Position numbers and translations under genes: made by a program
Source: a virus
Virus record (IMG/VR): IMGVR_UViG_3300010296_000015
Location: 1-42,961 of that record
DNA length: 42,961 nucleotides
Strand: one strand, 5' to 3'
Part shown: positions 1 to 40,827 of the stretch, in pieces
Layout of the letters: each line of letters begins with the position of its first letter
Numbering within the stretch: position 1 is the first letter of the stretch
Notes under the pieces: generated by a model
What the model was told of the DNA's origin: nothing
The model's database searches: none
What the model saw: the letters and a program-made list of their open reading frames with translations, nothing else

Positions 1-3000
1 CACGAACCAACCCTGACCAACAGTTGCCTGATACACGGTAGTACCCTGTGTCAGTTTACTGGCTTCACCAGTTGGGAAGTACGTTCTGATGTAGAAACGC
101 ATATTACGCGACCAACCCTCACCAACTTGATACTGCGATCTAATGATCGAGTTTTGGTTAGTTGTTGCGCTCTGTGCAATTTCGTTGGTGAACTTCAGCA
201 GGTTACCAGATGCAGTAAACAGGTACGCTTTGTCACTGTCGAATCTACCATCGGTGATAACAGAAGTACCCCAGTGGAACAACGACGGGATGTAAGACGG
301 AATACCCACGTTTTGGATCTCGTAACGTGCAGGCAAGTTACCAGATCTGAAGTATGCCTCGGTCAAGCGGTTGTTATGCTTGAACTCGTGGATGTACTTC
401 ACGTGACCATTCTGATCCTTGAATCCAAAGCGAATCTTACCAGCACCATACCAGGAGTAGTCCATATACGCCATCTGGATCTTAGTGATGTCCAGAATGA
501 AACCAGAAGGACCGCTACCGTCGCAGTTATCGAGGTTCCAGTCACCCTGAGGTGCCTTGGTATCGATAGTCTTGGTAAGAATAATGTTGGAAGCAGTAAT
601 ACCCTTATACTGCGGTTGAATAATAATCTGGTTATCGTTCACAACGCGAATCACCTTGTGAGACTGACCGCGAATAACAACATAATCATTTGCCGACAGC
701 TGTGAGATGAATGCAGTATCATCGCCATCAACCACGTTAGAACCACGTGTCACGGAAACGCGACCAGTAAGTTGAGTAGTGGAAGAACGACGGACACAAT
801 TCAGAATAGAACCATTGTACTCGAAGAACATACCGTTTTGGAAGTCGAACATACCGCAACGGACGTTGGAGTTACTCCAGGTAACCACGTGGTAACCAGT
901 GAAACCACCAGCAGCAGATGATGTAGGTTCTTGATCCAGAATATATGTGAAGGTAAATTCATCGTCAACTGTTGCAACGGTGAATGCACCGTTATAGGTG
1001 ATATCATTGGAGTCAACAACACGAATACTAGTACCAACCTCTAAGTTGTGAGGCAGCTTAGTTTCGACGATAACTCTGTGATACGTAACACCATCCACAT
1101 AGGGAGAGTAGAACATACGGATCGCAGGGTTCTTCGGACAGAAGTTGATAGCGAGAGAACACTGAATACCTTTACCAGACTGGTAACGGAAGTATCTACG
1201 TGTCTGTCTACAAATCTGACCATCAGGAGACTTCGAAGTACCGATCTCCATACCACCGTCAAATGGTCTGTGGAGGAAGTATCCATCGGGACGCACATAA
1301 ATTGCGGTATCGATGAAGTATTCGGTAGGACCAGCAGAATTGACACTACCTGTTGTGAAAGTAGCAGCATCCGCAAGCAGCAATTCCGTATCGTCTTTAA
1401 TTGCAGAAATTATAGTCTCTACAACTGTGAACTTATCAGCAGAGTTGTTATTGATATAACGGAAAGCATCACCCACTTTGAAGTAACGAGTGAAGTTGGT
1501 GTTCGTACCGCTAGCAATACGTGAACCAGTCTGCAATTCGATAGTACCATTACCAACCACACGACCGTCCATATTGGTATGGATCAGTTTTTGTAGAGGT
1601 GTTTGAGAACCACCAGAAGTGAACTGGACATTAGTTCCACTCAAAGCAGCAGTAAGAGTTTCTGCAAGCTTAATATGGTCTTGATCAACCACAATGATGA
1701 AGTAGTCACGGTTATCAACCAGACCACCAATGGTTGTACCACCAGCATCCTGATAGATCACGCGCTGACCAGTCTTCATAAAGTGATTTTCGATATTCAA
1801 TGTATGATCGGTAATATCAACCGCACCTCCAGCAGTGGAGTCGCGAGCATCGAATGTCTTCGTGGAAGGAACAATCTGGAACGGAACTTCGATAACCAGT
1901 TGCGTTTGATCCTTAACCGTGTCCACATTATATGCGCCATCTGTTGCACCAAATGCAGCTGTCTGGTTTTCAAACACTTGTGTGCCAGAACCACCAGAAG
2001 TGATGTCAATTTCTCCGCCAGGATATGAGAAAGACGGACTATTACCCAGAGTAAAACGGTCGTTAGAAACAACCTTCACATAATACTGAGTGCTAGGTGT
2101 CAGGTTACCAATTGCTGTACCAGCAGTGGTATAGAAGAGACGCTCGCCATTGGACAGGTTGTGGCTTTCGTAGTAGAAAGAGTTTCTAAGCGGGTTCGCA
2201 AAGATACCTGTCATACCATAAGTACCCTGAGCATCGATCAGACGATACGGAGAAGAACCTGTGGAAGACTTAATACGGAAGCGGTTGTTGTCAACCTTTT
2301 CCACATAAACAGTTGCTGGCAGAGACAGACTGGCAATGTTATCGTTATTGGAATAGTAACGAGGATCAGCACCAGAAATTCTGGTCATATTGATCTGATC
2401 GTTAGTGACAGCACCGTGGTTTTCCACATAGAAGGTGTCATCATCAGTAGAACGATCCTGAACAAGCATCAAGAATGCGTTACCATAATAATCATAGTTC
2501 CAGTTATAAACCCAGGAACCGTGACCTCTGTAGTATGCATTCCACCAGTCATAACCATAACGGAAATGGTATCCGTTACCGTGATCGAGAGAATAGTTAT
2601 TACGATATCTATTGGAACGATAGTGATCTCTGTCGTACAGAGGGTTCCAATTACCGTTACCTAGAGAAGTCTCAGACTCGGGCAGATAATCATTATAGTT
2701 CCAACCAGGGTTATAACCCCAAACGTGGTTACCGCCGTGATACCAGTTAAGGTTAAAACGACCATCGTAGTTAGAAGTGTTTAGATCACCACTGCCATTA
2801 TACTGACGACGATTCATCGTCAGGAAGTAAGTACGGTTCCACTGAGAGTTGGAGATACCACGGTTGCTGCTAACATCCGCAAAGTCGCGACCAGAGTGGG
2901 TAGCACCTTGGTTGTTAGACATCCAGCGATAACGCCAGTACCAGTCCCACCACGGCTTCTCGTCGGAAGTATACTTGTGAACCAGAGCAAAGTTGTGCTT

Positions 3001-4674
3001 ACCGAAGTTATAAGTAGCAGCAGCACCTTGCAGAGAACCAGCGTCATTGCGAAGGTTGATGATACCGTTACTACCAGGGTTGCCACCATCAGCAGCAGCA
3101 TAGCAAGCGTTAGACAGTTTGATAACTGCAGTACCGCCATCAGCAGAAGAGGTAGATTCAACACGGGTGTAGTACACACCGTTGCGCTGTAAGTTCTCAA
3201 TACAATAGTCACCAGCATTGGGGTAGTACAGCAGAGAATATCTGCTACGCATATAGTTTGCGTTAGTACCAGTCAATGTGATGGTGCTATTGTTATAGTC
3301 AATTTGAGAATCATCAACAGTCCACACAGCAGTAGGCTTGTGGTCATATGGTTGATACTCTGCCATATTTGGCGTGAGAGTACCAGAGAAGGTATTCTCA
3401 TAATCCACAACTGCACGACCGTCAGCAGCAGTTGCTGTGGTGTTGCCGATGGAAAGAATCTTAGGAGAAATCGTATTAACGAAGTACAGTGCTGTACCAT
3501 CGCTAAAACCATTCTCATAAGAAGTAGACAGAACAACCTTAGTTGAAGAAACAGGGTTGAACTGAATCTCAAAACCAACGCCAGTGTTACCTGCGTTAGC
3601 ATCATATGCATAGAGAGTTGCGGGAGTGTTTTCGGTAACGTAAATACGAACGTAGGCATCTGCACTACCTTCAGTACCGTTCACATACACACCATCTGTA
3701 TATGCAACACCACCACCGTGAATACCATCAGCTGTGGTAGAAACACGGAACGGGTGACCAATGTTGGTTGCACTATCCAACTTGAAGATGTACATACCGT
3801 TCTTATTGAGTTCGAACGGTGTGCCGCCAGGAATTGCTCCGTCAATAGCGAAGTAACTCTGACCGCCTGCTGTTTCAACGGTAACGTTATACTCGAAAGT
3901 ATCTGCAACAATACCTTTGTCAGTCTGCAGAGAAATTGCAGAACCTTCGTAGAATAGACCAGGAATAATAGATGTATAAGAACCCGCAACGTTTGCCGAG
4001 ATCGACTGAGTTGCTCGTGCTTTATACGTAAATGTGGTCGGAGTAGGAACAGACTGAATCAGGTAAGAACCTTCAGCAGTTGTTACTGCAAGACCAGTAA
4101 CCACAATAGGAACACCAGGAGTCAGAGAGTGCTCATAGAGAGTTGTGACTGTGATGGTGTCGGAATTAGCCTGTGTTAACACAGACTCGATATAAGGAAT
4201 CGTTGTATCCTGAGTACCAGAATACGTAGAAGGAATATTGTTAACAAGCTGAAGTGTCTCCCACTTCGTTGCCTGCGGACCATATTCAAAGTCCGTATCA
4301 ATCATTGTCTCAGGGTTAGACACTCTGAGTTTTGACACGGGGTCAACAAATGTTTCAGAGGGTTCAAACTCTGAGTGTTGATTTTCAACAAAGATCTGAA
4401 GTTGATCAGTCTCACTCATCGTACTGGTGTCAGTAGCGAGAGTAATAATAGTCTTTTCAAAATCCTCATTATAATCACAACCAGTACCATTAGCGGTAGT
4501 CTGGAAACCCTTAGTAGGGTCTGAGAAGTTATAAAGGATCTCGTTGATTGTGACGTTGGTAATGAGAAGAATTCTCTCCCCACTAACATTGTCATTAATT
4601 GTGACCGTACCACCCGTAAGAGTATTAGGGTCATACGGTACAAAGCTATAGTCAGTGACTAGTTTCTTTGCCAT
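1..4674 (-). CDS. Very large virion structural protein, 3' end beyond window
   Basis: The frame is open from an ATG at 4674 to the window edge, giving at least 1,558 codons with no stop; the C-terminus lies outside. I do not recognise a named family. The protein is rich in Thr, Ser, Asn, Gly and Val, with short beta-rich stretches of the kind seen in cyanophage fibre and baseplate proteins. Residues about 579-732 are strikingly different: 639-732 contain 17 Tyr, 8 Trp, 17 Asn and 12 Gly and no Lys. An AGGGA Shine-Dalgarno-like sequence lies shortly upstream of the start. The gene is the last visible member of the fibre block and is probably co-transcribed with the 75-residue gene before it. 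It could be a long tail fibre, a tail-tip adhesin or a baseplate appendage. Structural role likely, exact role unknown. Confidence 0.8.
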   Translation of the reverse strand, partial: MAKKLVTDYSFVPYDPNTLTGGTVTINDNVSGERILLITNVTINEILYNFSDPTKGFQTTANGTGCDYNEDFEKTIITLATDTSTMSETDQLQIFVENQHSEFEPSETFVDPVSKLRVSNPETMIDTDFEYGPQATKWETLQLVNNIPSTYSGTQDTTIPYIESVLTQANSDTITVTTLYEHSLTPGVPIVVTGLAVTTAEGSYLIQSVPTPTTFTYKARATQSISANVAGSYTSIIPGLFYEGSAISLQTDKGIVADTFEYNVTVETAGGQSYFAIDGAIPGGTPFELNKNGMYIFKLDSATNIGHPFRVSTTADGIHGGGVAYTDGVYVNGTEGSADAYVRIYVTENTPATLYAYDANAGNTGVGFEIQFNPVSSTKVVLSTSYENGFSDGTALYFVNTISPKILSIGNTTATAADGRAVVDYENTFSGTLTPNMAEYQPYDHKPTAVWTVDDSQIDYNNSTITLTGTNANYMRSRYSLLYYPNAGDYCIENLQRNGVYYTRVESTSSADGGTAVIKLSNACYAAADGGNPGSNGIINLRNDAGSLQGAAATYNFGKHNFALVHKYTSDEKPWWDWYWRYRWMSNNQGATHSGRDFADVSSNRGISNSQWNRTYFLTMNRRQYNGSGDLNTSNYDGRFNLNWYHGGNHVWGYNPGWNYNDYLPESETSLGNGNWNPLYDRDHYRSNRYRNNYSLDHGNGYHFRYGYDWWNAYYRGHGSWVYNWNYDYYGNAFLMLVQDRSTDDDTFYVENHGAVTNDQINMTRISGADPRYYSNNDNIASLSLPATVYVEKVDNNRFRIKSSTGSSPYRLIDAQGTYGMTGIFANPLRNSFYYESHNLSNGERLFYTTAGTAIGNLTPSTQYYVKVVSNDRFTLGNSPSFSYPGGEIDITSGGSGTQVFENQTAAFGATDGAYNVDTVKDQTQLVIEVPFQIVPSTKTFDARDSTAGGAVDITDHTLNIENHFMKTGQRVIYQDAGGTTIGGLVDNRDYFIIVVDQDHIKLAETLTAALSGTNVQFTSGGSQTPLQKLIHTNMDGRVVGNGTIELQTGSRIASGTNTNFTRYFKVGDAFRYINNNSADKFTVVETIISAIKDDTELLLADAATFTTGSVNSAGPTEYFIDTAIYVRPDGYFLHRPFDGGMEIGTSKSPDGQICRQTRRYFRYQSGKGIQCSLAINFCPKNPAIRMFYSPYVDGVTYHRVIVETKLPHNLEVGTSIRVVDSNDITYNGAFTVATVDDEFTFTYILDQEPTSSAAGGFTGYHVVTWSNSNVRCGMFDFQNGMFFEYNGSILNCVRRSSTTQLTGRVSVTRGSNVVDGDDTAFISQLSANDYVVIRGQSHKVIRVVNDNQIIIQPQYKGITASNIILTKTIDTKAPQGDWNLDNCDGSGPSGFILDITKIQMAYMDYSWYGAGKIRFGFKDQNGHVKYIHEFKHNNRLTEAYFRSGNLPARYEIQNVGIPSYIPSLFHWGTSVITDGRFDSDKAYLFTASGNLLKFTNEIAQSATTNQNSIIRSQYQVGEGWSRNMRFYIRTYFPTGEASKLTQGTTVYQATVGQGWFV

Positions 4675-4997: not shown

Positions 4998-6167
4998 TTA
5001 CACATTCATTGTGAATCTAGTAAATTGAATGAAAGTCCCACTTGTACCAGTTGCTTTCACGAGAATATCACTGCCTACAAGCTCTACTTCAAACGTTGCT
5101 ACTGGATTGCCAGGATTTGTATGAACATCTCCAAACATTGTCACATATGCATTTGTACCATTATGTGTCACAATAATCTCGCTAGTAGAAACGTCACCAC
5201 CATAAGAAGCGTGCACCAGATACTTAGCGCCTCTCACATTTGTAGCGTTTAGAGTATCAAAAGTATCTGTAGCAGAAGCTGTGGTTGAAGAACCAGCGCT
5301 AATACCAGTATAGTCAGTAATATTAATGTGGTCGGTCGTATTTGTAGTTTCGATTCCGATGATTCCATCTGTAGTAATATTGCCAGTGACGCTAATAGTA
5401 TTTGATGCAACTACATCCGATAACAAATGAATAGAAGAAGGTCTCAACTCTAAAGTTGGGGTTGTTAAACCTCCTCTAGCAAAAGAAATATTGCTATTTC
5501 CAGTTTCAAATCTTGTGTATGCACCATCCTCTTTTACTCTCAGAGTATTATTAACGAAAATACCTTGAGACCCTTCTAACTGGATGCTACCAAGTAAAGA
5601 ACCAGCTGTAGATCTCAAAGAAAGATTGTTATCAGCACCAGTGATAAAAGATCTTGCTCCAGATAGACCCCAAGTAACAGAGTATGAAGGATCTAATTGT
5701 ATATCACCAGCAGAAACATTCAGTCTAGATGCTGGAGATGCACTACCGATACCAACAAAGTGATTGATTTCATCCACCACCAGTGTGGAACTATCAATAA
5801 CGATAGGACCATTAACGTTTAGACCACCCATCGTAAAAGTACCACCTTGATTCAGCTTGACCGCATTGATGGTACCATCGGAGGGTTCTCCGACATCAAT
5901 CGTATCGCCAATCACTAAACCGAAGAAATCGATACCAGGATTCGGTGGATCCGAGAATGTAATTTGATCGTTGTTGATTTGGTATGCAACGTTTGCTTCT
6001 TGAATAACACCACCAAGTGAGATGATAAGCTGCAAAGGCGAACCAGGGAAAATTACCTGACCACCAACACGCAAGTTAAAAGTAACTGCCACACCGTTGA
6101 ACTGTGCAGCAACGTCATCCAACTTACGGATATTACCAATTTTGGGTGCAACGCCTAAGTACGCCAT
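4998..6167 (-). CDS. Tail-fibre-like structural protein, 389 aa
   Basis: Residues 1-95 form a module also found at the start of the 457-residue protein: MAYLG, a QFNGV element, an F-x-L-R strand, and an S-L-G-G-V-I-Q-E element leading to I-T-F-S-D-P-P. The centre is Ser/Thr/Gly/Asn-rich with a GIGSASPASRLNV stretch of the type seen in trimeric phage fibres. Residues about 293-389 match the end of the 513-residue protein, with conserved DTF, GxKY, HxGT and a closing F-x-R/T-F pattern, and may be a distal receptor-contact domain. The gene follows the glycine-rich adhesin gene by 19 nt. A role as a fibre or short-tail appendage is inferred from this architecture. Confidence 0.8.
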   Translation of the reverse strand: MAYLGVAPKIGNIRKLDDVAAQFNGVAVTFNLRVGGQVIFPGSPLQLIISLGGVIQEANVAYQINNDQITFSDPPNPGIDFFGLVIGDTIDVGEPSDGTINAVKLNQGGTFTMGGLNVNGPIVIDSSTLVVDEINHFVGIGSASPASRLNVSAGDIQLDPSYSVTWGLSGARSFITGADNNLSLRSTAGSLLGSIQLEGSQGIFVNNTLRVKEDGAYTRFETGNSNISFARGGLTTPTLELRPSSIHLLSDVVASNTISVTGNITTDGIIGIETTNTTDHINITDYTGISAGSSTTASATDTFDTLNATNVRGAKYLVHASYGGDVSTSEIIVTHNGTNAYVTMFGDVHTNPGNPVATFEVELVGSDILVKATGTSGTFIQFTRFTMNV

Positions 6168-6186
6168 TTCCGTTTAAAATTATTTA

Positions 6187-7167
6187 TTAGGTGATAATGA
6201 ATTTCCCATCTGTGCCAGACTGACCAGCACCGCCACCCTGACCAGCAACACCCCTATCGGGATCTGCATTGTTGCCAGGAATAGCATTGTTTCCAGCGGA
6301 AGATGATCCAGCAATGATGCGAGTTTGATCTACAAAACTAGATCCACCACCACCGCCGTGACCATTGACATCACCACTACCGCCGCCACCGCCGCCGTAG
6401 TAACCAGCACCGCCACCACCGCCAGGATAAGTAAGGAGAGATCCTGCTCTACCTCCTGCTAGAGATGAACCATCCAGAGCATCGGTAAAACCAGCAAAAC
6501 CGCCAGCAGTTTGTGATCCTCCGCCACCTCCTCTTTGATCGAATAGTTGACCAATTTGACCGTTAGGACCACCGCCTGCACCACCAATTTGATCAGCACC
6601 AGCGCCCCCGCCACCAGCTGCAATCAGAAGAGCATTCGATTGAACAGCAGAATTTCTGAAGATACCTGTGTATCCTCCACCACAACCACCATATTCATTT
6701 CCCGAAAGACCACCCAAAGCACCACCACATTCTCCACCAGAAGTAATCTGTGCGGTTGCTCTAGGATCACCACCACCACCAACACAAATATAGTATTGTG
6801 CTGTAGAAAGAAGTTTTAAACCACCAGCTGTATAACCAGCACCGCCACCAATACCACCAGGGTTAGATCCTCCTGCTCCACCTGCACCCCACATAGTAAA
6901 TTGAACAGTGAAAACAGCATCGTTAGAAACAATCGTTTCTAAAATGAATTCTCCACGATTTAAAGTGAGTGGACCTTGGACATCGAGATTCCAATTGATA
7001 ATAGGATCACCATTTTGAGGTGTTACACGAATGGTGCGAACGGCTTCAAATGGAGTATTGCGAATCTTAGTGGTATCGTAAAAAGGACGCAAATGTCCTT
7101 CATCGGTCAAGTTGTCTAACCGACTTTCGTAATTTAAAGTTTTAAGACTACCGACACGAAAAGGCAT
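6187..7167 (-). CDS. Glycine-rich adhesin-like protein (Gly_rich domain)
   Basis: 326 residues. The first 90 or so residues are an ordinary mixed region (fibre attachment candidate). From about residue 92 the protein is dominated by glycine runs in the order typical of the Gly_rich family (the domain also present in ALK/LTK receptors): a WGAGGAGG start, a short strand ending in VGGGG, an IAAGGGGAG element, GGGGGSQTAGG, PGGGGGAGYYGGGGG and GGGGGSSFV. Such glycine tracts can form packed polyglycine-II helices, as known for the tip adhesin of some T4-like phages. It lies between two fibre genes and its start abuts the preceding stop (TAAATG). A receptor-binding tip is a reasonable inference; the receptor is unknown. 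Confidence 0.8.
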   Translation of the reverse strand: MPFRVGSLKTLNYESRLDNLTDEGHLRPFYDTTKIRNTPFEAVRTIRVTPQNGDPIINWNLDVQGPLTLNRGEFILETIVSNDAVFTVQFTMWGAGGAGGSNPGGIGGGAGYTAGGLKLLSTAQYYICVGGGGDPRATAQITSGGECGGALGGLSGNEYGGCGGGYTGIFRNSAVQSNALLIAAGGGGAGADQIGGAGGGPNGQIGQLFDQRGGGGGSQTAGGFAGFTDALDGSSLAGGRAGSLLTYPGGGGGAGYYGGGGGGSGDVNGHGGGGGSSFVDQTRIIAGSSSAGNNAIPGNNADPDRGVAGQGGGAGQSGTDGKFIIT

Positions 7168-7545
7168 TTACGACTCCTTATCACCAATAAGAATGATGGT
7201 GACTTTATTTGAGCTATCTGTCACACCATAAATGGCATCATTCTCATCTTCGAGAACAATGGGATAATTTAGTTCGACGTAAAATGTTTCACCAGAACTT
7301 AATTCTTGTCTAACAAATTGTTGGGGTTTAGTTGCAGCATCGATAGTATCGAGTGCACCAACATTATCTTCTGCAAGATATAAGTTGACGGTTTCTGTAG
7401 TAGTGTTGCCGTTAAAAACAACAAAACCTTTAAAATAAGTTTTTGTGTTGGCAGGATTTACATAAATCGTGCCAGGAGTACCCGATGGAATAAACTGAAT
7501 GTTTCTTCCACCTGTTCCTGATAATTTTCCTCTTGAGAGAGCCAT
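7168..7545 (-). CDS. Small structural protein, 125 aa
   Basis: A 125-residue beta-rich protein without signal peptide or membrane segment. The pattern of strands (TYFKGFVVFNGN, ETVNLYLAED, a GETFYVELNYPIVLEDE stretch and VTIILIG at the end) resembles small phage virion proteins that report a per-site value and error, and is loosely like the outer part of the 214-residue protein at 8943-9587. AGGAGG lies 12 nt before the ATG, a longer spacing than usual. Its stop codon touches the start of the glycine-rich adhesin gene, so the two are probably translated together. A fibre-associated or decoration role is inferred only from context. Confidence 0.7.
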   Translation of the reverse strand: MALSRGKLSGTGGRNIQFIPSGTPGTIYVNPANTKTYFKGFVVFNGNTTTETVNLYLAEDNVGALDTIDAATKPQQFVRQELSSGETFYVELNYPIVLEDENDAIYGVTDSSNKVTIILIGDKES

Positions 7546-7569
7546 TGTATACTGTATCCTCCTTGATAT

Positions 7570-8943
7570 TTAGCTGAACAACCAGATGTCCCGCATTTCA
7601 TTGCGGTCACTGAATTCCATATTTACGGTGCCATCAAGATTACTGCTAGAAACAACAAGGTTATAACCGATATCAGCAACTTGGGTAGCAGGGAAAATAA
7701 TATTCCCAAGGCGAATCCTGTTAGGTGTAGGACCACCAGGATCAGCTTGAATAGAAACGCCATTGATTGTGGCATTATTCAATGTTTGTAGATTAGTAGT
7801 ACCACTGCTTGCATCTGCTTTCAGCGAAATCGCATTGAACACAGTAGTTGCAAAATTGGGGTCATCCCCAAGTGCATTACTTAATTCTTGCAATGTATCG
7901 AGAGCGCCAGGAGCTTGTCCGATCAAGTCTGCAACTTCTTGGCGAACAAATGCTGTGGTAGCAATCTTTGTACTGTTATCATTCAAAGTCTGAGTGATAC
8001 CAGTGGAATTTCCAGAAATGTTAACAGTAGTTCTATCAGAAGGAGAACCAATAGAATTCTGTGTAGTAATATATCCTTGCCTTGCAACAAAAATATCTGT
8101 CTGCTGTCCACCAGAAGTGGTAGCAAACATATGGAAATCATCACCGTTCTGAACAATATCGGTGAAACCACCAGTATTGCTAGACTCCAATCTGATTGCG
8201 GGAAGAGTCTGAGCTTTTACTCTAAGACAGTTACTAGTAGCAGAAGCACCGTCAATGTCAACCTTATAACTAGGAGAGTAATTCCCAACGCCAATAGAAC
8301 CGTAGCAATCAATATCTCTAACATTGATATCATCAGTGCTTAGAAGTTCAACAGCACCAGATCTTCCGTAGAAAGAAGAAACAGCACTGGTAGGTCCGAC
8401 CAAGGACGAAGAGAAACCAATGTGAGTGACTTCGATGACCGATCCAATATCAGGAGCATCGTCAAAACGCAAAACTAGATTTTGTTGAACCAGAGTATAT
8501 GCATCTTTATGTTGCACCAGACCGTCAATAGTCACCAGAATCGCGTGCACATTCGGCGGTGCTTTCGACATTGTAAAGTCGGAATCAATACCGTTGGCAG
8601 TGAATGTCTCGGAGAAGATCTCCGAACGATCCATATTGTTGACTACAGAATTTTGTACTTGTCCAAAGAAAGTATCTCCTGTTTCGGGAGCTTCGGAGAA
8701 ATAAATTCTATCTCCCTGAACCCAGAAAGAACCAGGACCAGCTTGAGCACTAGCAGTGTTTGGTTGTTGCAGAACACCATTTAAACTGACTTGCAGTTGC
8801 ATCGACTGAGCAACTGTTACTACATCTCCGTTAGTAGTACGAAGCTCAAAGTTTGTGTCTACCCCGTTAAACTGAGACGAGATATCTTGGAGCTCCTGAA
8901 TTTTAGAAACATATGCTTCTGGATTAAGTCCAAGATATGCCAT
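7570..8943 (-). CDS. Tail-fibre protein, 457 aa
   Basis: Residues 1-100 carry the same N-terminal module as the 389-residue protein (MAYLG, QFNGV, a VSLNGVLQQPN element, IYFSEAP). A second copy follows at about 105-180 (FTANGIDSDF, VTIDGLVQHKDAY). Residues about 320-367 hold a signature shared by many phage tail fibres: IATTAFVRQEV, then AP-GALDTLQELSNALGDDPNF, which lies in the shaft of such fibres. The start overlaps the stop of the upstream gene (TGATG), consistent with coupled translation. The fibre assignment is well supported by the signature; which of the tail fibres it belongs to is not clear. Confidence 0.85.
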   Translation of the reverse strand: MAYLGLNPEAYVSKIQELQDISSQFNGVDTNFELRTTNGDVVTVAQSMQLQVSLNGVLQQPNTASAQAGPGSFWVQGDRIYFSEAPETGDTFFGQVQNSVVNNMDRSEIFSETFTANGIDSDFTMSKAPPNVHAILVTIDGLVQHKDAYTLVQQNLVLRFDDAPDIGSVIEVTHIGFSSSLVGPTSAVSSFYGRSGAVELLSTDDINVRDIDCYGSIGVGNYSPSYKVDIDGASATSNCLRVKAQTLPAIRLESSNTGGFTDIVQNGDDFHMFATTSGGQQTDIFVARQGYITTQNSIGSPSDRTTVNISGNSTGITQTLNDNSTKIATTAFVRQEVADLIGQAPGALDTLQELSNALGDDPNFATTVFNAISLKADASSGTTNLQTLNNATINGVSIQADPGGPTPNRIRLGNIIFPATQVADIGYNLVVSSSNLDGTVNMEFSDRNEMRDIWLFS

Positions 8944-9587
8944 CAGACTGAGACCTCCATAAAGCTAGCAATGCAATCCAATGCATTATTAGTGTCGCAA
9001 GAAATTACAATCTCATCTCCCAAACCAACATCAATTTTTTGCACAGAATCTCCGCTAGTGTGTGTTGTTGCGGTGCTCGATGCTTGTGCGCGATCGACGT
9101 TTAGAAGTTCGTTACCTGTACCTTGAAGAGATGTGACTTGCATAATCTCGTCATTGATTATGATATAATCTAAGGCATTAAATTTGGGACCAGTGTTATC
9201 ACTGACTTCAATTTGAGTAATGCCAGTACCAGTAATATCTGCTGCTAGTGTATCACTTACAGCTGGTGTAGAAAGACGATATCCATCAGCATCATACGAC
9301 AAAATGATCTTTTGCCCCTGCATAACTTCGAACGCAGATCCAGCAGGGATCGGTAGATTTTTTACGATGTATACATCATCTTTTGGGTATTGCGGATCAA
9401 TAGAATATGCTGGATATCTATTAATCTTAACCTCCGCCAAAACAGCAGTCTGAGTTGTATTGGACAAGTTACATCCAATGATCACAGTCTGCTTTTCCAC
9501 TTGGGTGCCTTGTAGTTCTACCGAGTAAATTGCGGTCTCGGTAGTTCCTACACCTGTCTTTGAAGTTGAGATAAATTTATTTGCCAT
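8943..9587 (-). CDS. Virion structural protein with inserted domain, 214 aa
   Basis: The outer parts (residues about 1-102 and 188-214) look like one small beta-sandwich protein: TVIIGCNLSN, LPIPAGSAFEV, GQKIIL, then GDEIVISCDTNNALDCIASFMEV. Between them, residues about 103-187 form a module with the pattern I-x-V-x-D, YIIINDEIMQVTS, L-N-V-D-R-A, T-T-H-T-S-G-D, which also occurs in the 3,660-residue protein. The simplest reading is a small head or fibre-associated protein into which this module was inserted. It lies between two fibre-like genes, 6 nt after the 217-residue gene, and overlaps the next gene by TGATG. Function inferred from context only. Confidence 0.75.
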   Translation of the reverse strand: MANKFISTSKTGVGTTETAIYSVELQGTQVEKQTVIIGCNLSNTTQTAVLAEVKINRYPAYSIDPQYPKDDVYIVKNLPIPAGSAFEVMQGQKIILSYDADGYRLSTPAVSDTLAADITGTGITQIEVSDNTGPKFNALDYIIINDEIMQVTSLQGTGNELLNVDRAQASSTATTHTSGDSVQKIDVGLGDEIVISCDTNNALDCIASFMEVSV

Positions 9588-9593
9588 TTGTTA

Positions 9594-10247
9594 TTAACCG
9601 AGAGCGATAGCAAGAGCAGTAGCATCAAGACCTGCTTCCACAGACACACCGACCTGGGCAGCAAGTGTATTCACCTCAACCTGCAATTCGTTGATCGCAT
9701 TAACAAGGTTTGCTTTGTTTTGTGTCGTGAGGTTTGTAAGATTTCCAATAGTGATATCTTTGATTTCGTTAATCGCAGAAACAATACTGGATTTAGAGAC
9801 AGTAGAAAGATTGGCAAGAACGCCAATGATAACGTCTTTCGTTTCGTTAAGTGCAGCAACTAAGCTGCTGTCATCAACAATATTTGCAGTTAATGTTGTG
9901 AGATCGCCAACATCAGAATCAAGTTCATTTATAGCATTTACAATGCTTGTTTTATCAACCGTTGTCAGTTGAGATAATGATTTGATGATAGTATCGACAA
10001 CATAGTTAACCGCTTCCACCACATCATCTTTATTTCCATTGGGAATTTCCGATGATAGATTCGCAATAGGACCAAGTTCTGTATCCAATTCGAGCAAACA
10101 ATCTGTGATAGTTTGAGCTACAAGATTATTTGCGACGGATTGGAGAACAATTTTACCAGAAAAATCACCAGCATCTGCGCCAATATCATTGATCTCCAGG
10201 CGCTGCTGTTCAAACGTATAATTTTTAGCTACGTTCCTTACAGTCAT
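9594..10247 (-). CDS. Fibre-like repeat protein, 217 aa
   Basis: From about residue 80 the protein consists of four or five imperfect repeats of 25-28 residues with the pattern L-x-x-L-T-T-x-x-K-x-S-I-V-N-A-I-N-E-L-x-x-x-V. This is the alpha-helical repeat found in many phage tail-fibre shafts and probably makes a trimeric coiled coil. The C-terminus ends ATALAIALG, like the 75-residue protein at 4710-4937. A TATAAATA box lies 34 nt upstream of the ATG, so it begins a late transcription unit with the next five genes. A fibre shaft or connector role is likely. Confidence 0.8.
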   Translation of the reverse strand: MTVRNVAKNYTFEQQRLEINDIGADAGDFSGKIVLQSVANNLVAQTITDCLLELDTELGPIANLSSEIPNGNKDDVVEAVNYVVDTIIKSLSQLTTVDKTSIVNAINELDSDVGDLTTLTANIVDDSSLVAALNETKDVIIGVLANLSTVSKSSIVSAINEIKDITIGNLTNLTTQNKANLVNAINELQVEVNTLAAQVGVSVEAGLDATALAIALG

Positions 10248-10281
10248 TATGGGTTCCCCATACGGATTAGTTATCTGAGTT

Positions 10282-10289
10282 TATTTATA
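10282..10289 (-). promoter_or_regulatory. T4-type late promoter box TATAAATA
   Basis: An exact minus-strand TATAAATA lies 34 nt before the ATG at 10247, directly beyond the stop of the 513-residue gene. It is well placed to start a late transcript covering the fibre genes down to about 4998. No nearby -35 box is needed for T4-type late promoters. Confidence 0.65.
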
Positions 10290-11831
10290 TCAGGATGTGA
10301 TAAGCGATCTGAAGTACTTAACTGTATTAGTAGCAAAAGATGGGGTGAAAATGACCTCAATATTTGCACCATTGTATTGTGCAGTAATAGTACCTAAAGC
10401 ACCCTGAGCAAGACCACCAGAAGTCATAGTGGCATATTCTTCGATAAAGATATCAGTGCCATCGTGCATAATCAAAACTTCTTTGGTTTGAATATACGAT
10501 CCAGATACAACCTGAACCACATATTTACCACTAAGATAATCTGTAGAAGTGAAGGTATCAAGGACAGCAGCTTGAACAGTCGCTGTCACGATTTGTCCAC
10601 AATCTTCACCGTGAATGCCGCGAGTTAAAACAAGCGAATCGCCTTGATCGTTGTAGCGAATTTTCTCGGCACCACCAAGAACAAATCCAATTTGATCCGA
10701 AGCGGGACGATAGAATCCATTATCTTGGTCCAGGTAGAAAGAAATACCAGGAATTGCAACTGTACCATCACCTGCACCAGTAAAACCAGACAGGTTAGTC
10801 AGACCATTACCATCGCCAACAAATGCTGATGCGCCAACGGTACCATTGACTTGGACAATTTGGGCAAGAGCATTATTAGGATCTTGACCAATACCAATTT
10901 TATTATTGGTCGGATCGACTTTAATGATAGGAACATTCGATCCAGATGGTTCAACTGTAACTACTGCGCCGTCGAATGTAACAGACGAATTAGCACCAGA
11001 AACACTGATAGAACCAGCTTCTAAATCTGCTATTAAAGTTCCTCTGTCAAAAACAAGATCGCCTGAAGTGGTACCAGTAAATGTACCAGTACCAATAGCA
11101 AATTTGTCTTCTGATTCGTCGTAACCAATAAACGCATTATCTTCGGTACCACGCTCAAAAACGATACCAGAGTCACCAGCTGGTGCACCAACAACACCAT
11201 TACCAAGTTCAATTAATTTATCGCCAATAATAGTGTTGGTAGTGGAAACTGTAGTTGTACCACCAAGAACTGTAAGTTCACCGTTGATGACAACGTTGTT
11301 GGCAACTTCTAAATCTTCTGTTGGATTTCCAACACCAATACCAACTTTTCCTTGTCCAGTAACGACTATAGCATCTGTCAGAGCATTAGGGGCGGAACCA
11401 CTAACACCCGATGCTTTTGTTGTTTTGAATCTAATGTAACCACCAGAGGCAGAACCTGTACTCGCACCACCAGCGATAACGAGATCCGATCCAGAAACAT
11501 CAATACCAACAACGTTCTCTCTGGAGAGTTTACCAGTAACGTTTAGAGTAGTTGCAACACTAATAGAGTTGAAACTAAAAGTTGCATTAGTGTCAATCTT
11601 TGGAGGAGTGATAGCACCATCGCGAATAACACTAGTGTCAATAGCTTCTTGACCAATACTAGTGCTAAGTTTTTGTGTTGTGATGGAGTTGTCTGCTAAC
11701 TTCAGGGTCGTGACAGCGCCATTACGGATAACAGATGTAGTGACCGCCTGGGTACCAACACCACTATCCAGTTTGGCGTCACTGACCAACCCATCATTTA
11801 AACCAGTTCTCCTGATTCGTGTAAGCGCCAT
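10290..11831 (-). CDS. Tail-fibre-like structural protein, 513 aa
   Basis: The N-terminus is a repeat-rich attachment region: LKLADNSITTQKL and similar elements with SVIRNGAVT and SVIRDGAIT copies in residues 35-75. The middle contains fibre-shaft motifs (GQGKVGIGVGNPTEDLEV, then DKLIELGNG) typical of phage trimeric fibres. The last 100 residues or so (about 410-513) match the C-terminal domain of the 389-residue protein, with DTF, GKY, T-K-E-V, HDGTD and a closing YFRSLIT. A TATAAATA box lies 24 nt upstream. Two proteins with the same tip but different shafts suggest exchangeable receptor-binding ends. Fibre assignment is strong; attachment site on the virion is not known. Confidence 0.82.
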   Translation of the reverse strand: MALTRIRRTGLNDGLVSDAKLDSGVGTQAVTTSVIRNGAVTTLKLADNSITTQKLSTSIGQEAIDTSVIRDGAITPPKIDTNATFSFNSISVATTLNVTGKLSRENVVGIDVSGSDLVIAGGASTGSASGGYIRFKTTKASGVSGSAPNALTDAIVVTGQGKVGIGVGNPTEDLEVANNVVINGELTVLGGTTTVSTTNTIIGDKLIELGNGVVGAPAGDSGIVFERGTEDNAFIGYDESEDKFAIGTGTFTGTTSGDLVFDRGTLIADLEAGSISVSGANSSVTFDGAVVTVEPSGSNVPIIKVDPTNNKIGIGQDPNNALAQIVQVNGTVGASAFVGDGNGLTNLSGFTGAGDGTVAIPGISFYLDQDNGFYRPASDQIGFVLGGAEKIRYNDQGDSLVLTRGIHGEDCGQIVTATVQAAVLDTFTSTDYLSGKYVVQVVSGSYIQTKEVLIMHDGTDIFIEEYATMTSGGLAQGALGTITAQYNGANIEVIFTPSFATNTVKYFRSLITS

Positions 11832-11855
11832 TTTTTAAACAGTTTCCTATGTGAG

Positions 11856-11863
11856 TATTTATA
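11856..11863 (-). promoter_or_regulatory. T4-type late promoter box TATAAATA
   Basis: An exact minus-strand TATAAATA lies 24 nt before the ATG at 11831, overlapping the stop codon of the small coiled-coil gene. It would start a late transcript for the 513-residue fibre gene. Confidence 0.6.
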
Positions 11864-12062
11864 GTTTTGAAATGAGCTCTTTCAAAAGACCCTTTATATC
11901 TGCTACATCTCTTTTGAGATCGGCAATTTCTCTATCGTAACTGAGGTTACGTTCTGCCATTGCTTTTTGTTTTTTGTATGCTTCAAAGGAGCTTTTATCG
12001 TGGTTGATAATCGCTCCTGTATCATCGCGATGATAATCAGTATGACCCTGCACTTTATTCAT
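11859..12062 (-). CDS. Small coiled-coil protein, 67 aa
   Basis: The start chosen is the ATG at 12062, which has AGAGG 5-6 nt upstream. An earlier in-frame ATG at 12104 overlaps the stop of the 2,749-residue gene (TGATG) and would add 14 residues. The protein opens with MNKVQGHTDYHRDDTGAIIN and ends in a heptad-rich helix from about residue 40 (EIADLKRDVADIKGLLKEL) that should form a coiled coil. I recall similar short proteins beside structural genes in marine T4-like phages, but no function is known. It may assist assembly of the neighbouring baseplate or fibre protein. Confidence 0.75.
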   Translation of the reverse strand: MNKVQGHTDYHRDDTGAIINHDKSSFEAYKKQKAMAERNLSYDREIADLKRDVADIKGLLKELISKL

Positions 12063-12103
12063 ATGTCCTCTAGACCAAAATTCGGAAATAATAATACTAA
12101 ACA

Positions 12104-15100
12104 TCAATATGTAGCAATGGCTCGAAGATCTCTGATTCTGGGAGGCATTGCAGGATTTCGTGACTTCATAACAACTTTGATTGCAAATGAGTTGAAATCT
12201 TTCAAACCACTGATAGTATAAGAATATTCCTTAAAGTCAGATTCCGATTCTGTAGTTGGTGAGAAGTTTGTGCCAGTAGAAGGAGATACAGAAACGTCAG
12301 GAGAACCATCTTCGTTGAAGTATGCCCAGTTGATCTCGTTGAAGAAGACCTGTTGCGAGGCACGCTTAGTTTTATACATCAATGTAATATCATCGATTTC
12401 CTGAAGAGCAGCAGTAATCTTGACGGTAATGCCATTACCAGGATTTTCCAGAGAAATTTCTTTGGTAACGTAGTTGGCAACATTAGAAGAATTCTTTAAT
12501 CTTTCGGATGTATATAAGAAACCGTATGCATCATACACTTCCTTAATTTCCATAGGAACATTGAAAGATTGGTTGATAACATCAAAACCATCTTGATATT
12601 CACCATTTCCAGGATTACCAACACCAAGCAAATCGCCATTCGCGAATAGCGAATCGTTAGATGTAAAGATCAAACGATAATTTTCTTGGTTCCAACGTGT
12701 TACTTTACCCGTCTTGGTATCACTATCATTCGCAATCAAATCATTGGGAGTGATATCAAATTGTGCGAGAGACAGATCACCAGCAATCTTCAGAGGTAAG
12801 GTGAAACCACTAGGAGCTCCAGATGTGGGGTTGGTGGTAACACCATCAAAGTTCCACTCTTGGTTATAAGTAGAGGAACCACTGAATACAGGTTCTTCAC
12901 CTAGAATAAAACCATCACCCTCAATAATTCTCACATACATTTCACCTGGCGAAGAAGCATTCCAGTAAGACAGAACGCCCTTAGTGCCAGAAGTTTTACC
13001 AGTGATAATTTGTCCTTTACCACCAGTAACTTCAAAAGCTTGCGCCGAACCAAGAGTTGCGGGTGTTCCTGCACTATCGATCAGTCTCATCACAACAGTC
13101 TTATAAACTTCAACTTGCTGAACTTTTCTTCCATATCTATCTTCATCGCCCATAGGAGACTCAACGCGGTTAGTGGTGAGAACAGCCTTAGGATTCTTAA
13201 GATTGATAATCGGAGAAAGATTCGGATTAGTTGTAGACAGAGTTGCCTGAACTGTCATCGACTTCTTATTATTCAATGTGCTGGCAAACAACTTCTCATT
13301 GAGTTTAGATGTAACAACACGCTGAGTTGGGAAGTAATATTCTTTGTTCAGAATAATAGGTACAAATTCTTCGAGAGAATAATCTGTAACTGTTTCTCTG
13401 CTGTCAATAGGTTTGATATTTGTAGTTTGAATTCTGGTTTCTAATGAGGTGTCGGGATAATCAAGAGCATCGATCTTAACCAAAGCTTTCTCGTATTTAA
13501 CTTGACCGAGAGCCATAGTATTGAGACCACCGCCAATAGCAGAACCACCAGCACTAGTAGGCATCGCAACAGTATAGAAATCAATGCCAGCATCGACAAT
13601 TGGGAGAATCTGATTATTCAGAGCAGTTGCAGAAAAACCACCAACACCAGATGCACTTTTGAGAGCAACATAAGATCCAGGATTCAGACCGTGATTCTTA
13701 TGGGTAATCTTAATAATCTTATTATTAGAACCAAATAGTTTGCTAGTAGTAGTGCTAGAACCAGATGCATCAGTTTCAATTGAATTAGTACCGATGTGCT
13801 CATAACCCATATCGGAATTAATCAGATTGATGACACCAGACTTTGTGGTATCAAACTGAGCACGATTTAACTCGAACTTGAGGTCTTCATACTGGTTCTC
13901 GGTCCAAAGATTGCTATTCTGACTCTTAAACAGAGAACCAAGCAGAGGTTGAGTAGTAACTGTAGAGTTACTATTAATCTCAGTTTCGCCAAGGCGAGAG
14001 ATGAATGTTTGGTACTGAGTGCTATTTGTTTCGATGATAAGAGCATATTCACGATCATTCTCCAGGTAAACGGGATACTTAAAGTGGAATTGTGTAGGAA
14101 CAAGTGCTTTTTCGTCAGTAGCAACACCCATTCTCACAGCTGGTTTGTTGTACTTAATGATTGCCCTTGCGGTAGCAAGTTGCGTTGCGCTAGAACTAAC
14201 GATAAGAACACTAGGAGGATTGGTATATTCATTGCCACCGAGAGTCGGATTAATTTCATATACCTTTTGATCTGTGATGCTAGGAATAGCAGTTGCGGTA
14301 ACGCCGCCAGGAAGTTGCGGAGATTCGATAGTAACAGTTGTAGAACCAGCATAACCATCACCAAGATCATCCATAACGATCTTCGAGACGTAACCCGAAT
14401 CTTGAACAATTTCCATCTTGATGATATCAGAACCAGATCTGCTGTTATTAGCAACAGTCAGTGATGTAATAACGAGTGGTTCTCCAGGAATAAACGTTTC
14501 CTTGTTATGATTGCTCAGAATCAGGGTATAAACTTGAGTTGTCGCAAGAGTAAATGTCTCGTTAACTTCTGGAACGGGGTTGTTCTGAGAATCAAGAACT
14601 GCTAAGAGAGGACCCTGAGCATTAGAAGTATCTCCTTCAATAATCTCATTTTTGATCAGAGTGTGAGAACTACTAGTAATAACACGAATATAAGTATTGG
14701 GATCAATAACTACTTCAGATCCAGGAAGAATATTCTTACTAGGTCTTCCAGCAATCGTATCCGAAATCTTGACAGAAATCGGGAGAGTGGCATCTTTTTG
14801 CGAGAAGTAAAGATTCAGAGAAGATGCAAATACACCACCAGTAAAACTTTCGACACGGAAGGTTTGTGCCAGAGGATCAACAACCGAAACTTCTGGATTC
14901 AGAATATTCTCAGTGAATTGAGTGCCATCAACTTTATCCCCATCTAGAACGTTCTCTACAGAAATAATGTCGTTGGGAGCAGTTTCCTTGATAGCAGTTG
15001 CATAGAAAGCAACGCTAGCAAAGGTCTCGGGGTGAGCACCATTAGTGGAGCTGCTAGTGAATTTGATTTTTTTGACACCCAGAGGGAATCTCAAACCAGG

Positions 15101-18100
15101 AGTAGTATCCCAATCAATGTTATCCAGTTTCTCTTCGTAAGCAGTACCCGTAACTGGTTTTCTGCCAGAAGGAATTAGAATAATACCAGTTGCATTGCCA
15201 GCATCATCAGTGACTAAAGGATCGCCCCAGAATCTCAGAGAAGATCCAGGTTGACCAGAATAATTGCGATCGGGAACCAAATAAGAAGAGATGTTAATGT
15301 TATCCAGGAAAGGATATAATTTTGTATTTGGTTTCATCTTACGCAGATGGAACTCAATATATTGCTCCTTGACGTATAAAGTCAAAGATGTGCTGATGGT
15401 CTTCTCACCAATAGTGGTGCTGCTTTGCTGAAGAGGAATTTCTGTGTTCTGAGATGCAATATTAGAAGAACTGGTAATCCTAGAAGAAATAACCTCGGAT
15501 GCAGAGTTATCTGGAGCATCGGAGCTTAAAGAGAAAACATTACTAAACTCTGAGTCGTTACCGAGCACAGAAATCTTGCTGACATCGTGAATTTGAGAAA
15601 GTGCAGTATCACCGTCTTCATAAACTTCCAGCGGATCTAATGTTTGGTTGTCATTGTTATTGAGAGCAGGTAAAGCATACTCATCAAACCAAGGATCGAT
15701 GTTGGGTGTGATTTCTGCAGATCCTTTAAATGCGAAGATCAGGAACGGATTGACAGCAACAGTATTTGTTGCGAATGTATTTTGAACTAAAACTGCTTCT
15801 GTGTAGGGCAGAGTTACAACACCATTGTTGACGACATAATTGGAAAGAAGTCTTGCTGTGGGTGCAGGATCGAGTTCTTCCAGAGAAACTGTAGTCTCTT
15901 TGGACTCAGGGCGAAGTGAACCACGAGTCAAGTCGAGAGCACAACGGTAATCGACACTGTTAATATTAGACAGAGCAAAATTCTCAAAATTATCAACTGC
16001 AAATCCAGACTTGAATTTATCGAGACCAGTGCCAGAATCTTTAATCTGCGTATTCATTGCAGATTGCTCAAGAACTGAAAGCATTGTGTATCTTTCAACA
16101 CGCTCAATTCTTTTCTCGAGCTTAGAGATATCGCGCATTGTAAAACGCTTATTCTCTACTGGGAAGACTTTGATTTTTCTGATATTGTCTGTAAATGCAG
16201 GAATATAAATCTTAAAAATCTTGATTGCTTCGTCGATAGTTTGTGCAGACTGCGGGTCATTAGAACCTGCACCTTTCTTAACGATAAAGTTACCATCTTT
16301 CTTCAGATAGACAGTATCGATTCTATCGACGTAGTATTCGTAATAGCACGCAAAAGTATAAGGAATAGATTTTGAAGATTCTGTATCAGCAGGAAGTGCG
16401 GCAGTAACACCACCTGATGTATAAACCTCAGATACATTAGAACCAGAATCCATTACGCTGGCATTCAGATAACCAGGAATTTGTGCTGATGTACCAACTA
16501 AAGGACGGAAATCAATCACGTCGGCAAGAGATTTCTTACCATAAACATTGGATGTGAAGACAGGAATGTCCTCATACGCCACACCATTTTCGTGTAGGTA
16601 AGAATCAGCAGCAAAGAAGTCACCTTCAGAGTGCTTAAAGTAATCAAAACCAATAACTAAGGTTCCTGTAGGAGTTCTAAAACCAGGCTTTCTTATGAGA
16701 GAAGCAGTGTCATACAAAGAATCTCTTTGACCATTATCAAACAGGAAGAAATTGGTAATATCAGTACCGCTGCTACCAAGAATGTTTCCATTTTCATCTA
16801 CTGTCGGAGCAACACCAGGAGTACCTTCATAAACATAACGCAACTTATAAACGTCAGAGTATGATTTGACTTGACCAGTAGGATCATCATAATCATCACC
16901 TCTTAGTGGGATGATTTCGTTATCCAAGTCAGATGCAATAGAAATTCTCTTATTTCCGACAGATGTTTTTAATTTTGGTTTTGCTTTTGATGTCTCGATG
17001 GTACAAGAAATCTTGAGCTTCATATCGGACAAGTTTAATGTGCCCGATTGATAGAAGTAACCAGCAGGAAGTTTGATATCAATAGAACCAGCATTATTTG
17101 TGCTATTGCCACTGGTAATTGAAATCATCGAAGAATCGATGTAGAGAATATCACCATCTCTGACAATCTCACCAGACGCACTACCATAACGTGTGGTAGT
17201 AGCACCCACATTATAAACTTCGATGACATAATCTCCTTGAGAGAAAGGAGCAAACTGCTGTTGACCGAAATCTAATTGTGCAGCAACGTTAATTTCATTT
17301 GTAGTACCATCAATCGTAACTGATTCGATGAACTGCCTTCTCGCATAGTATGTAATACCAGTATCAGTAGAGTCTGTTAAAATCGAAGCAATTTTAGAGT
17401 TAGGCAGAGGAAGAATCAAGCTTGATTTTCCTGCATTTGAAATCTTAGATCTAATTCTTGTAACAGTGTTAGAAGCAAATCCCTGTTGAAGACGTTGCTT
17501 TAAATAAATTCTACCAACAGAATCGGTGGAAGCATTGCAGGCAGATGCAACTTCATATCTGTAAGATCTACCATCGATAGTGATCTGAATCAAATCATCT
17601 ACTTTTAATTCATCTGCAGGACGAGCTGTGTAATTTGTCGCTTCAATATAATCGCAATCTGTACGACCAGAATACTGAAGATTGTTGCTAATAGTTTTAA
17701 ATTCGGTGTAATCAGTTTCCGCATACTGAATATCAGCAGTAAAGAACTTATTGGAAGCACCGTGCTGCATACCAATAGAACGGATATCTTCGGTACCGAA
17801 AGTTTGAATAACATCTTTAAACAGATGTGCTCTTACATAGGCATCAGGATCGCCAGCACTATGAACACCACCAACATCAATCACCTCAATTTTGGGAGGT
17901 AATGCAAATACATCAGTAATGTCTCTTCTACCAAGTTCTGTAAACTGAACAGAATGTACATAATCTTGCTGACCATTAATACCGTCAGTAGCAGTTTCTC
18001 TTCTGACAGTCAAATAGTTTCCGAGATACTGTCTATCAGCAATCTTAAGGTTCATCAGTTCGGAATAGTTTTCACCACCATAGGGAACTGTGAAGTGACT

Positions 18101-22248: not shown

Positions 22249-25200
22249 TTAGAACTTGTTTGCAGATAAAACGTGGGAACCTGCTGGATAAGACTCAGCT
22301 GAGTCATCAAAGAAAACTCTTCTGACACCCCAAGAATCGAAATAGAAGGTGTCATAACCAGTTCTAAATTTGATGTAAGTGTTGGTAGTTTGAGCATTTG
22401 CAGGAAGGTTTATTGTCAAAATGTTCCAGTCATTGTAATTGTTATCTTGATCAGTGACAAAACCAAGAACCACCCAACCAGTAATCGAAGTCCAATACTC
22501 AATAACAAAAGATCCACCAAACACAGTACTATCCCCACCATTAGTACCAGTTCCACGAATAATTTCAAAACTGATAGTCGTATAAGAAGACATATTGAGA
22601 CCTTGGATAATCAATTCACGGTTGTGATAATTATTTGGACTAACTCTTCTGTCACCAAATGCCCAATATCTAGTGTTGCTAGCGAATCCAGCAGTAGTGA
22701 GATCGCTTCCATTACCAGTTCCACTACCACCATCAACTTCATAAACATTTGTTGTTTGATAAGTTATTTCGGTGTAGGGGTCATATCCGACTTCAACAAT
22801 GCCTTTAGGATTCGGACGAGTGCAACCAAGGAATCTATCCGAAGCTACGCCAGTGTAATTAATAATTTCGCGGGCATCTGGATCTGTATTACTTGCAAGA
22901 ATAAAGGAACCGCTTGTGGGGAATCCTCTAGTAGAGTTCACAAGAACAACATTAGATCCGTAAGGATTTGCCAGAACGGTACCCTTCACAGATGTGTAGA
23001 ATGCCAATTCAGATCCTTGCTGATAACGGAAGTAATTCTGATCACCTTCCGCATATACCTGCGAATTAGTAATTTCAGAATTTTCAAAATCTCCAATAGT
23101 GAGATTGGGATACAAGTTAGACCAGAACTCAATAGTCATATCTCCCATAACATAATTAATCTGTCTGCCAGAATAATCAGTGTAATAACCGTTCTGACCG
23201 ATAGTACCATTTGACTGAGGTTGAATCTCAAACTTCATAGACTCCAGAGAACCAATAGACAGTCCAAGAGATCCAGTGGTGAATGAATCAAAACCAATCA
23301 TATTGGGATTGTTGAAAGCTCTCCTTTCAACAGCACCAGCATTATATTGAACCTTAGTCTCGGTGTTCTTATACTTGGTGATGGCACAAGAAATGCCCTG
23401 AACACCACCAGTCATTTGAGACTGGAGGATTTCAGTTTGTTTGTGCTCAACATATACCTGCTCAGGTGCCAGATTGATGTAAATCTCGGGTTGAGGATGC
23501 ATCTCAAGTCCAAGATCAAGAATCTTCTGGATGATTACGCGACCATCATAATATTTCTTGACTTGATAGATGGGTGCGCCAGCATTACCGAACACCAAAT
23601 TTGTACCGATCGGCATATAGGAGTTGAGAATGCTCCATTGTGTCTGATCGCCACCTTTGAAGATGGTATTCAAATAAGAGGTAATTGGTAGATCGCTAAC
23701 TGTGGAATCGAGACGGGGAGGTTCGATACCGAAAGTTGTAAAGTTTTTGATAGAAAGGGGATCCTTGCGGATCACAAAATATCCTCTAGTAAATAGAATT
23801 TGAGGAGCAACTTTATATCCAGAACCAGTAGAAATTAGTTCGGTATCAACAACTTCGCCTCTAACAACAATTGCACTTGCTCTAGCACCACCACCAGTCG
23901 GAGAAGAAAGGGGATCGCCATTAGAATCGGTAACTGGGGATGATCTAAAGATCATCACAGGAGGTTCGCGATAATTTAAAGAAGATTGGAAATCTAATTG
24001 ATCGGAGTATAGAGAAGAAGAATAATCATAATGTCCAGGTTCATCGTTAGCACTAGCATTTCTAGGAACAAAAGATCCTCCTAAGAGATCTTCTCCTTTG
24101 TTCCAAATATTTGCTTGGTGCCACTCTCTATAAGACTCAAAGTAAGCAGAATTATCTCTTCTTGTGAGTACAATACTGTTAACACCACCAGCTTTAAGAA
24201 TCTGCAAACCAGTTGCATTTGTGCTGGGAACTTGATCGATGTAAATCTTTTCCCCAACACGGAATGTGCTGTAGTCGGGATCTGTATACGGTGCACCGTC
24301 AATATATTCACTGCGCAGTTCGATAGTTTTTCTGGAAAGAGAATAACTCTTAACCTCACCACTCCAAATCACAGGAGAATTGATATCATTCTGATCGGCA
24401 TACTGAACAACAATATCTCCAGGAAGGAATTCGACACCTTCTTGTCTACTAGAAGTCAGAGTGTGGAATCTAACCTCGGCATCAATTCTTGCGATTGCTT
24501 GAGCACCAGTACCCTCAATTTGACCAGAATAAGGACCAACGTTGAGGACAACTTCATATTCATATGATCTAAAGAAGGATGCCACTTCACCAGAAGTATC
24601 AGAATCATATCCAGATGTAACTAAAGCTTCACGAGCAGCACGAACAATACTGCGAGTATCTGCCTCACCATCAATTTGAATTAAATCACCAACACCAAGA
24701 CTGGATTTAATTCTATCTTGTCTGTTGAACAGTTTTTCGCGAAGTTGATCATTAACAGTCTCTTCAACATCAAGAATTTGTAGATCAATAACAGATGCAG
24801 TTGCTCCTCTATCTCTAGTAACACTTAAAGTGCCCCCATTCCAGTTCTCTTTCTGTGCAGTCACACCTTCCACGAACAGAACGTTCTGCTGTCCAGGAGT
24901 CCAAGACTGCTTATAGATTCTACCTCTAGCAAAAGAGTATGGATAGTTGTACTGTGTGCCAGTCACAGGTTCTGTTGAAACCCAACAATCTGCACCTTCC
25001 AACGGTAACAGGACTTGCTGATCAACTGTGAGTTTGAAGTATTTCTTGAATGTGCCAGGAGGTTCAATGTTGTAACCCAGAAGCACACGCTCAGGATCTA
25101 AACCGTAGAAGTAAAGAATGAAGCAAGCGGATCCAGTTGCGGGCGGTTCTGTAAATACAATGATATTGTCTTCGGAGCGATATGATTCGCGATTGACCTG

Positions 25201-39998: not shown

Positions 39999-40173
39999 TT
40001 GGTTTCGTTTTTTGGATGGTACTCAGGTTCTTCTCTGCGGTTTCCAAAGACCTGAAATGATGGGCACTATCAGGATCAGAACTCCACTTGGAATCCTTTG
40101 TCCAATATATCATACCCTTCACAAAATTTCCATTGTGGGGCGCTGCAATCGTCCAATACTCTTTACGTGCCAT
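39964..40173 (-). CDS. Unknown small protein, 69 aa, first gene of operon
   Basis: 69 residues beginning MARKEYWTIAAPHNGNFVKG with a Lys-rich end (TKPNARVVKVNPNN). No domain recognised. AAGG lies about 12 nt upstream, a weak site. It is the first gene after the 179-base non-coding region carrying a CTAAATA box and appears to lead the operon that continues to the spike-tip protein. Confidence 0.65.
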   Translation of the reverse strand: MARKEYWTIAAPHNGNFVKGMIYWTKDSKWSSDPDSAHHFRSLETAEKNLSTIQKTKPNARVVKVNPNN

Positions 40174-40814: not shown

Positions 40815-40827
40815 GACGGTCTGCCGC

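Follow-up and report, generated by a model that had tools for sequence, protein, structure and literature searches.

Cyanomyoviruses have no recognisable versions of the T4 genes wac, g10, g11, g12, g34, g35 and g37, and virion proteins of unassigned function have been proposed to replace some of the missing T4 proteins (PMC2984593). When phage S-PM2d coexisted with Synechococcus, a mutation in S-PM2d175 reached 100% in all replicates, and this gene belongs to a contiguous gene block potentially encoding adhesin components (PMC9910659). The adhesin remark concerns S-PM2d175, a neighbour of S-PM2d173, which is the relative of the protein described here; the two lie two genes apart, in the same same-strand run of three virion-type genes. 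S-PM2d173/S-PM2p175 (T4-GC 863), S-RSM4_036 and S-RIM32 gp046 are 1,095–1,108 aa long and share with the protein described here an N-terminal region of ~250 residues and a C-terminal region of ~670 residues, which in S-PM2d173 come almost directly one after the other. Database records name this family "virion structural protein", and S-RSM4_036 carries a remark there on its similarity to an S-PM2 structural protein.

The member studied here is encoded at one end of the window, by which we mean the whole stretch of 42,961 nucleotides analysed from the IMG/VR viral record IMGVR_UViG_3300010296_000015. Its gene occupies the minus strand from position 4674 down to 1, where the reading frame runs off the contig end; read on the plus strand, 1–4674 contains many stop codons. 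The contig end cuts off the 3' end of the gene, leaving the first 1,558 of ~1,792 residues, and complete relatives have 1,792–1,794 aa. The initial annotation had located the protein correctly at 1–4674, and the strand and the truncation are now added to it. The protein matches the profile of phrog_5838 with E=1e-158 (E=7.5e-186 for a relative), a family that PHROGs places in the category "head and packaging", not tail. From this match and the ends shared with S-PM2d173, we assign the protein to the family of S-PM2d173 and T4-GC 863, the "virion structural protein" of T4-like cyanophages. The earlier description of a fibre-type protein is supported, as a virion protein of fibre or adhesin type. 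The features of the gene, all on the minus strand and listed from the N-terminal side, are as follows.

1 to 4674, minus strand: large virion structural protein, of the adhesin type known from T4-like cyanophages, matching phrog_5838 and related to S-PM2d173 (T4-GC 863)
3898 to 4674, minus strand: N-terminal region, residues 1–259, common to 46 phage records, nearly all from Synechococcus phages or cyanophages
1303 to 3897, minus strand: lineage-specific middle, residues ~260–1124, with the aromatic-rich block inside it; absent from S-PM2d173
2953 to 3000, minus strand: conserved N-side edge of the block, KHNFALVHKYTSDEKP, residues 559–574, from the alignment; proposed to be a strand bordering the domain
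2470 to 2952, minus strand: putative Tyr/Trp/Asn/Gly/Arg-rich domain, residues ~575–735, from composition and the alignment of relatives
2479 to 2760, minus strand: core of the Tyr/Trp/Asn/Gly-rich block, residues 639–732, from residue counts
2440 to 2475, minus strand: conserved C-side edge of the block, NAFLMLVQDRST, residues ~734–745, from the alignment
1 to 1302, minus strand: conserved C-terminal region, from residue ~1125, truncated, with 41–50% identity to the S-RSM4, S-RIM32 and S-BM3 relatives

Comparison with cultured cyanophages revealed a protein with shared ends and a variable middle. The complete relative L016 aligned with S-PM2d173 at 44–45% identity over the N part and the main C part and had the same C-terminal end; the final ISW[ST]E[SA]QA is common to S-PM2d173, S-RSM4_036, S-RIM32 gp046 and the family of the window protein. 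These three cultured relatives lack the ~870-aa middle (residues ~260–1124), and the block with it. S-BM3 SBM3_00190 (2,087 aa), S-CAM1 SXBG_00214 (1,673 aa) and the protein of ctQRb9 (1,736 aa), a Manatee Spring phage in which it is annotated as a virion structural protein, have the same ends and large middles of their own, which share at most generic repeats with the window protein and in which not even a profile of the block found a match. Because the cultured relatives share both ends but have either no middle or one of their own, we place the block in a lineage-specific middle. A sequence search of the PDB with the C-terminal region gave no real match. Elsewhere in the middle, residues ~300–378 (window ~3540–3780, minus strand) form a GHPFRVSTTADGIHGGG...TLYAYDA stretch, which we presume resembles a cupredoxin-like module that many virion proteins of cyanophages contain. 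The S-BM3 relative (L002, protein at 6001–12264) has a moderately Tyr/Trp-rich stretch of its own at residues ~1166–1260 (Y+W 16/94), unrelated in sequence to the block.

The genomic setting points to the same group of phages. The window encodes gp25-like, gp6-like and further baseplate wedge proteins, and in L016 genes resembling gp13, gp14, gp15 and the small terminase gene lie downstream of the parent gene, the gp13/14/15/16-like ones directly so; in S-BM3 and S-CAM1 the gene is likewise directly upstream of gp13. A 187-kb contig that carries the block has both psbA and psbD, evidence that comes from this relative and not from the window itself, and the phage DNA closest to that of the 187-kb relative is a Synechococcus-phage psbD. 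At 39800–42961 the window has a G+C content of up to 0.60, compared with ~0.41 elsewhere, and only short ORFs; parts of this end match 46 phage records at the DNA level, all of them Synechococcus phages or cyanophages. From its own baseplate genes, the gp13/14/15/16-like genes of L016 and the photosynthesis genes of the 187-kb relative, we assign the virus to the T4-like cyanomyoviruses. Its host is most probably of the Synechococcus type, since the high-G+C end resembles Synechococcus phages and cyanophages and the 187-kb relative has psbA and psbD. Three other minus-strand genes of the window encode a glycine-rich fibre-type protein (6187–7167; Pfam ALK/LTK glycine-rich domain, E=7.7e-11), a very large baseplate-region protein of 2,749 aa (12104–20353) and an even larger baseplate-region protein of 3,660 aa (22249–33231), along whose length many different phage virion families match. 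The protein of phage DSL-LC01 that holds a relative of the parent protein is also annotated with an ALK/LTK glycine-rich domain.

The composition of the block is exceptional both within its protein and beyond it. Residues 639–732 contain, exactly as counted in the initial annotation, 17 Tyr, 17 Asn, 12 Gly, 8 Trp, 7 Arg and 6 His out of 94, and no Lys. Among 94-residue windows of the parent protein, this is the maximum of Y+W+N (42/94), and Y+W alone peaks at 25/94 at residues 636–729, compared with maxima that averaged 14.3 and did not exceed 21 in 2,000 whole-protein shuffles. The other proteins of the window reach a Y+W peak of at most 13/94, and in 170 ORFs of at least 150 aa from all fetched loci, windows at 24–26/94 came from the block only, the next value being 16. 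The core was correctly delimited at first, but the full unusual unit is longer, at residues ~575–735, from WWDWYWRYRW to DYYGNAFL, with NFALVHKY and NAFLMLVQD at its flanks. This unit has 41 aromatic residues out of 161, no Lys and 14 I/L/V/M. Of eight aromatic spacings tried, pairs at i,i+4 stood out in the window protein (19 compared with ~10 expected, below 1/2,000), an enrichment that was weaker in some relatives (about 0.001–0.05) and that would fit a folded domain.

A scan of IMG/VR with a 205-residue query demonstrated the block in 21 other viral contigs, at 63–87% identity over 205 aa, and in 21/21 it was in frame and in the same parent protein. Searches of IMG/VR with the block alone, a check proposed in the initial annotation, with the C-terminal half of the block, and with the sequence flanking it or lying downstream retrieved essentially the same ~21–23 contigs, and no relative without the block between otherwise matching flanks was seen in these scans. 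The relatives share the odd composition, rather than having a normal one in this region. An artefact, whether a frameshift, an assembly error or a hypermutated region, would be suggested by the odd composition alone; the recurrence of the same frame in 21 contigs with constrained codons makes it a negligible prospect and bears out the earlier statement that the reading frame is genuine. We rejected a frameshift on the in-frame recurrence and a dN/dS of ~0.1, and a diversity-generating retroelement target on that same ratio and on a search of nine carrier contigs, the 187-kb record and some fragments included, in which no reverse transcriptase (RVT_1) was found.

Beyond these contigs the block had no detectable relatives. 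It gave no match in a tblastn search of 50,697 records of cultured phages (E up to 10), and its profile gave none in the whole records of eight phages with relatives of the parent protein. A pattern scan of the genomes of 84,980 species of bacteria and archaea returned 505 pattern matches and, within the reach of such a scan, 0 relatives. No family match was found in PHROGs or among PDB sequences, and the block of 15 members gave no convincing match in Pfam (best E 1.3), so that no known domain accounts for the composition; nor did any known carbohydrate-binding module or lectin family match by profile in Pfam or by sequence search of the PDB. The parent family is already known, and what appears to be a domain within it is absent from every library searched.

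To describe the evolutionary pressures on the block, we compared its columns and substitution rates with those of its surroundings. The alignment of 15 sequences (A1) contained invariant positions, occupied by Trp, Tyr, Gly, Pro, Asp or Arg. Aromatic columns kept an aromatic residue in 95% of sequences, and W and G columns were ~0.91 identical (column statistics leaving out one relative, L020, whose row is out of register), while charged and Asn columns were more variable than the aromatic ones. Length was near-constant, with a single gap-bearing column, a single-residue indel, among the aligned relatives. The block is under purifying selection: dN/dS was ~0.1, most pairs falling at about 0.07–0.2, similar to the flanks and the rest of the protein, with one very close pair uninformative and some dS values saturated. 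Mean p-distance was 0.272 in the block compared with 0.194 and 0.205 in the flanks, making it, at a modest level, the fastest-evolving stretch of the parent protein. The question of whether the block is conserved or hypervariable can therefore be answered as neither hypervariable nor invariant. Because block and flank distances correlate (0.66–0.78), we conclude that the block has for the most part been passed on together with its surroundings.

These observations bear directly on the suggestion that the block is a disordered, sticky, amyloid-like or phase-separating low-complexity tract. Its Y/N/G/R-rich composition resembles prion-like sequences, and the initial annotation had likened it to adhesive or amyloid-like low-complexity sequence. 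However, no tandem repeats were found in the block, only one single-residue indel has occurred, dN/dS is ~0.1, and individual W/Y/G/P/D/R positions are invariant across 15 sequences. We consider such a tract very improbable, and a low-complexity or prion-like tract was rejected on position conservation, near-constant length and the lack of repeats. Position-specific conservation, near-constant length and the low dN/dS instead suggest a folded domain. AlphaFold2 gave a pLDDT of 32.1 for residues 430–870 and of 26.9 for the block with short flanks, from 15–16 similar sequences; shallow alignments often give low-confidence AlphaFold2 models, and the word "folded" is used here on the strength of conservation.

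We give about an even chance to the possibility that the block is a folded, lineage-specific, ~160-residue receptor-contact domain, probably glycan-binding, in an adhesin- or fibre-type virion protein. We prefer this reading because of the composition, the lineage restriction, the faster change under purifying selection, and the literature on adhesins and missing T4 genes; contact with a receptor and a glycan ligand are roles that we infer. Aromatic residues together with Asn, Arg, His and Asp are a composition typical of sugar-binding sites, and the densely packed sugar-binding surface put forward in the initial annotation is a plausible function. The composition is also like that of glycan-binding phage fibre tips and carbohydrate-binding modules, although in sequence the block is related to none of the models tested. 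In general terms, the T4 gp37 needle is likewise a receptor-binding, aromatic-containing fibre part of a T4-like phage; it carries GxHxH metal-binding motifs, of which none was found in the full-length relative L009, and it lies at the end of its protein, whereas the block lies mid-protein.

In such a protein, the two ends would form a conserved scaffold common to cultured Synechococcus phages, with the N-terminal part (residues 1–259) probably attaching to the virion, and the extra middle would be an added string of modules. On the N-terminal side of the block would lie a domain whose end reads ...GIINL..YNFGKHNFALVHKY, and on its C-terminal side beta-repeat-like units that start with ...DDTFYVENHGAVTND. 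Having few aliphatics and no Lys, the domain formed by the block would probably pack through Trp/Tyr rings and Gly/Asn-rich turns, and Tyr, Trp, Asn, Arg and His side chains could be presented as a host-contact surface. The most likely ligand would be a cyanobacterial envelope glycan, either LPS O-antigen or another surface polysaccharide. Hypervariability is frequent in those phage tips that are most exposed for receptor contact, and the fact that the block is not hypervariable counts against such a role, as do the "head and packaging" category of the parent family in PHROGs and the published adhesin remark being about a gene next to S-PM2d173.

Ranked next, and rather unlikely in our judgement, is a purely structural role, in which an aromatic-packed domain or shaft insert stiffens the fibre or joins subunits with no host contact. 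Near-invariant Trp/Tyr/Gly columns and few aliphatics suggest just such an aromatic core, the block has the same dN/dS as the protein around it, and its length is near-constant; however, it evolves faster than any other stretch of the protein, has an exceptional polar content and is absent from the relatives in cultured cyanophages. Among the aromatics there are invariant D, E, R and H residues, some of which could also serve an enzyme acting on host surface polysaccharide, of the depolymerase or deacetylase type that is frequent in tail fibres, but no enzyme family matched in Pfam, PHROGs or the PDB and we regard this as improbable.

In T4-like cyanophages of the sea, few of the proteins that recognise Synechococcus and Prochlorococcus are established, because T4 tail-fibre genes cannot be recognised in them. 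The block offers a tangible starting point: a conserved and unusual putative domain, the size of a module, that can be expressed on its own and that belongs to a candidate adhesin from viruses not yet cultured. It may tentatively be the first member seen of a new domain family with its own fold, aromatic-cored, aliphatic-poor and Asn/Gly-rich, through which this marine cyanophage lineage would recognise a cyanobacterial surface polysaccharide. A domain folded in the suggested way would be an unusual natural example of construction mainly on Tyr and Trp, and not on aliphatic packing.
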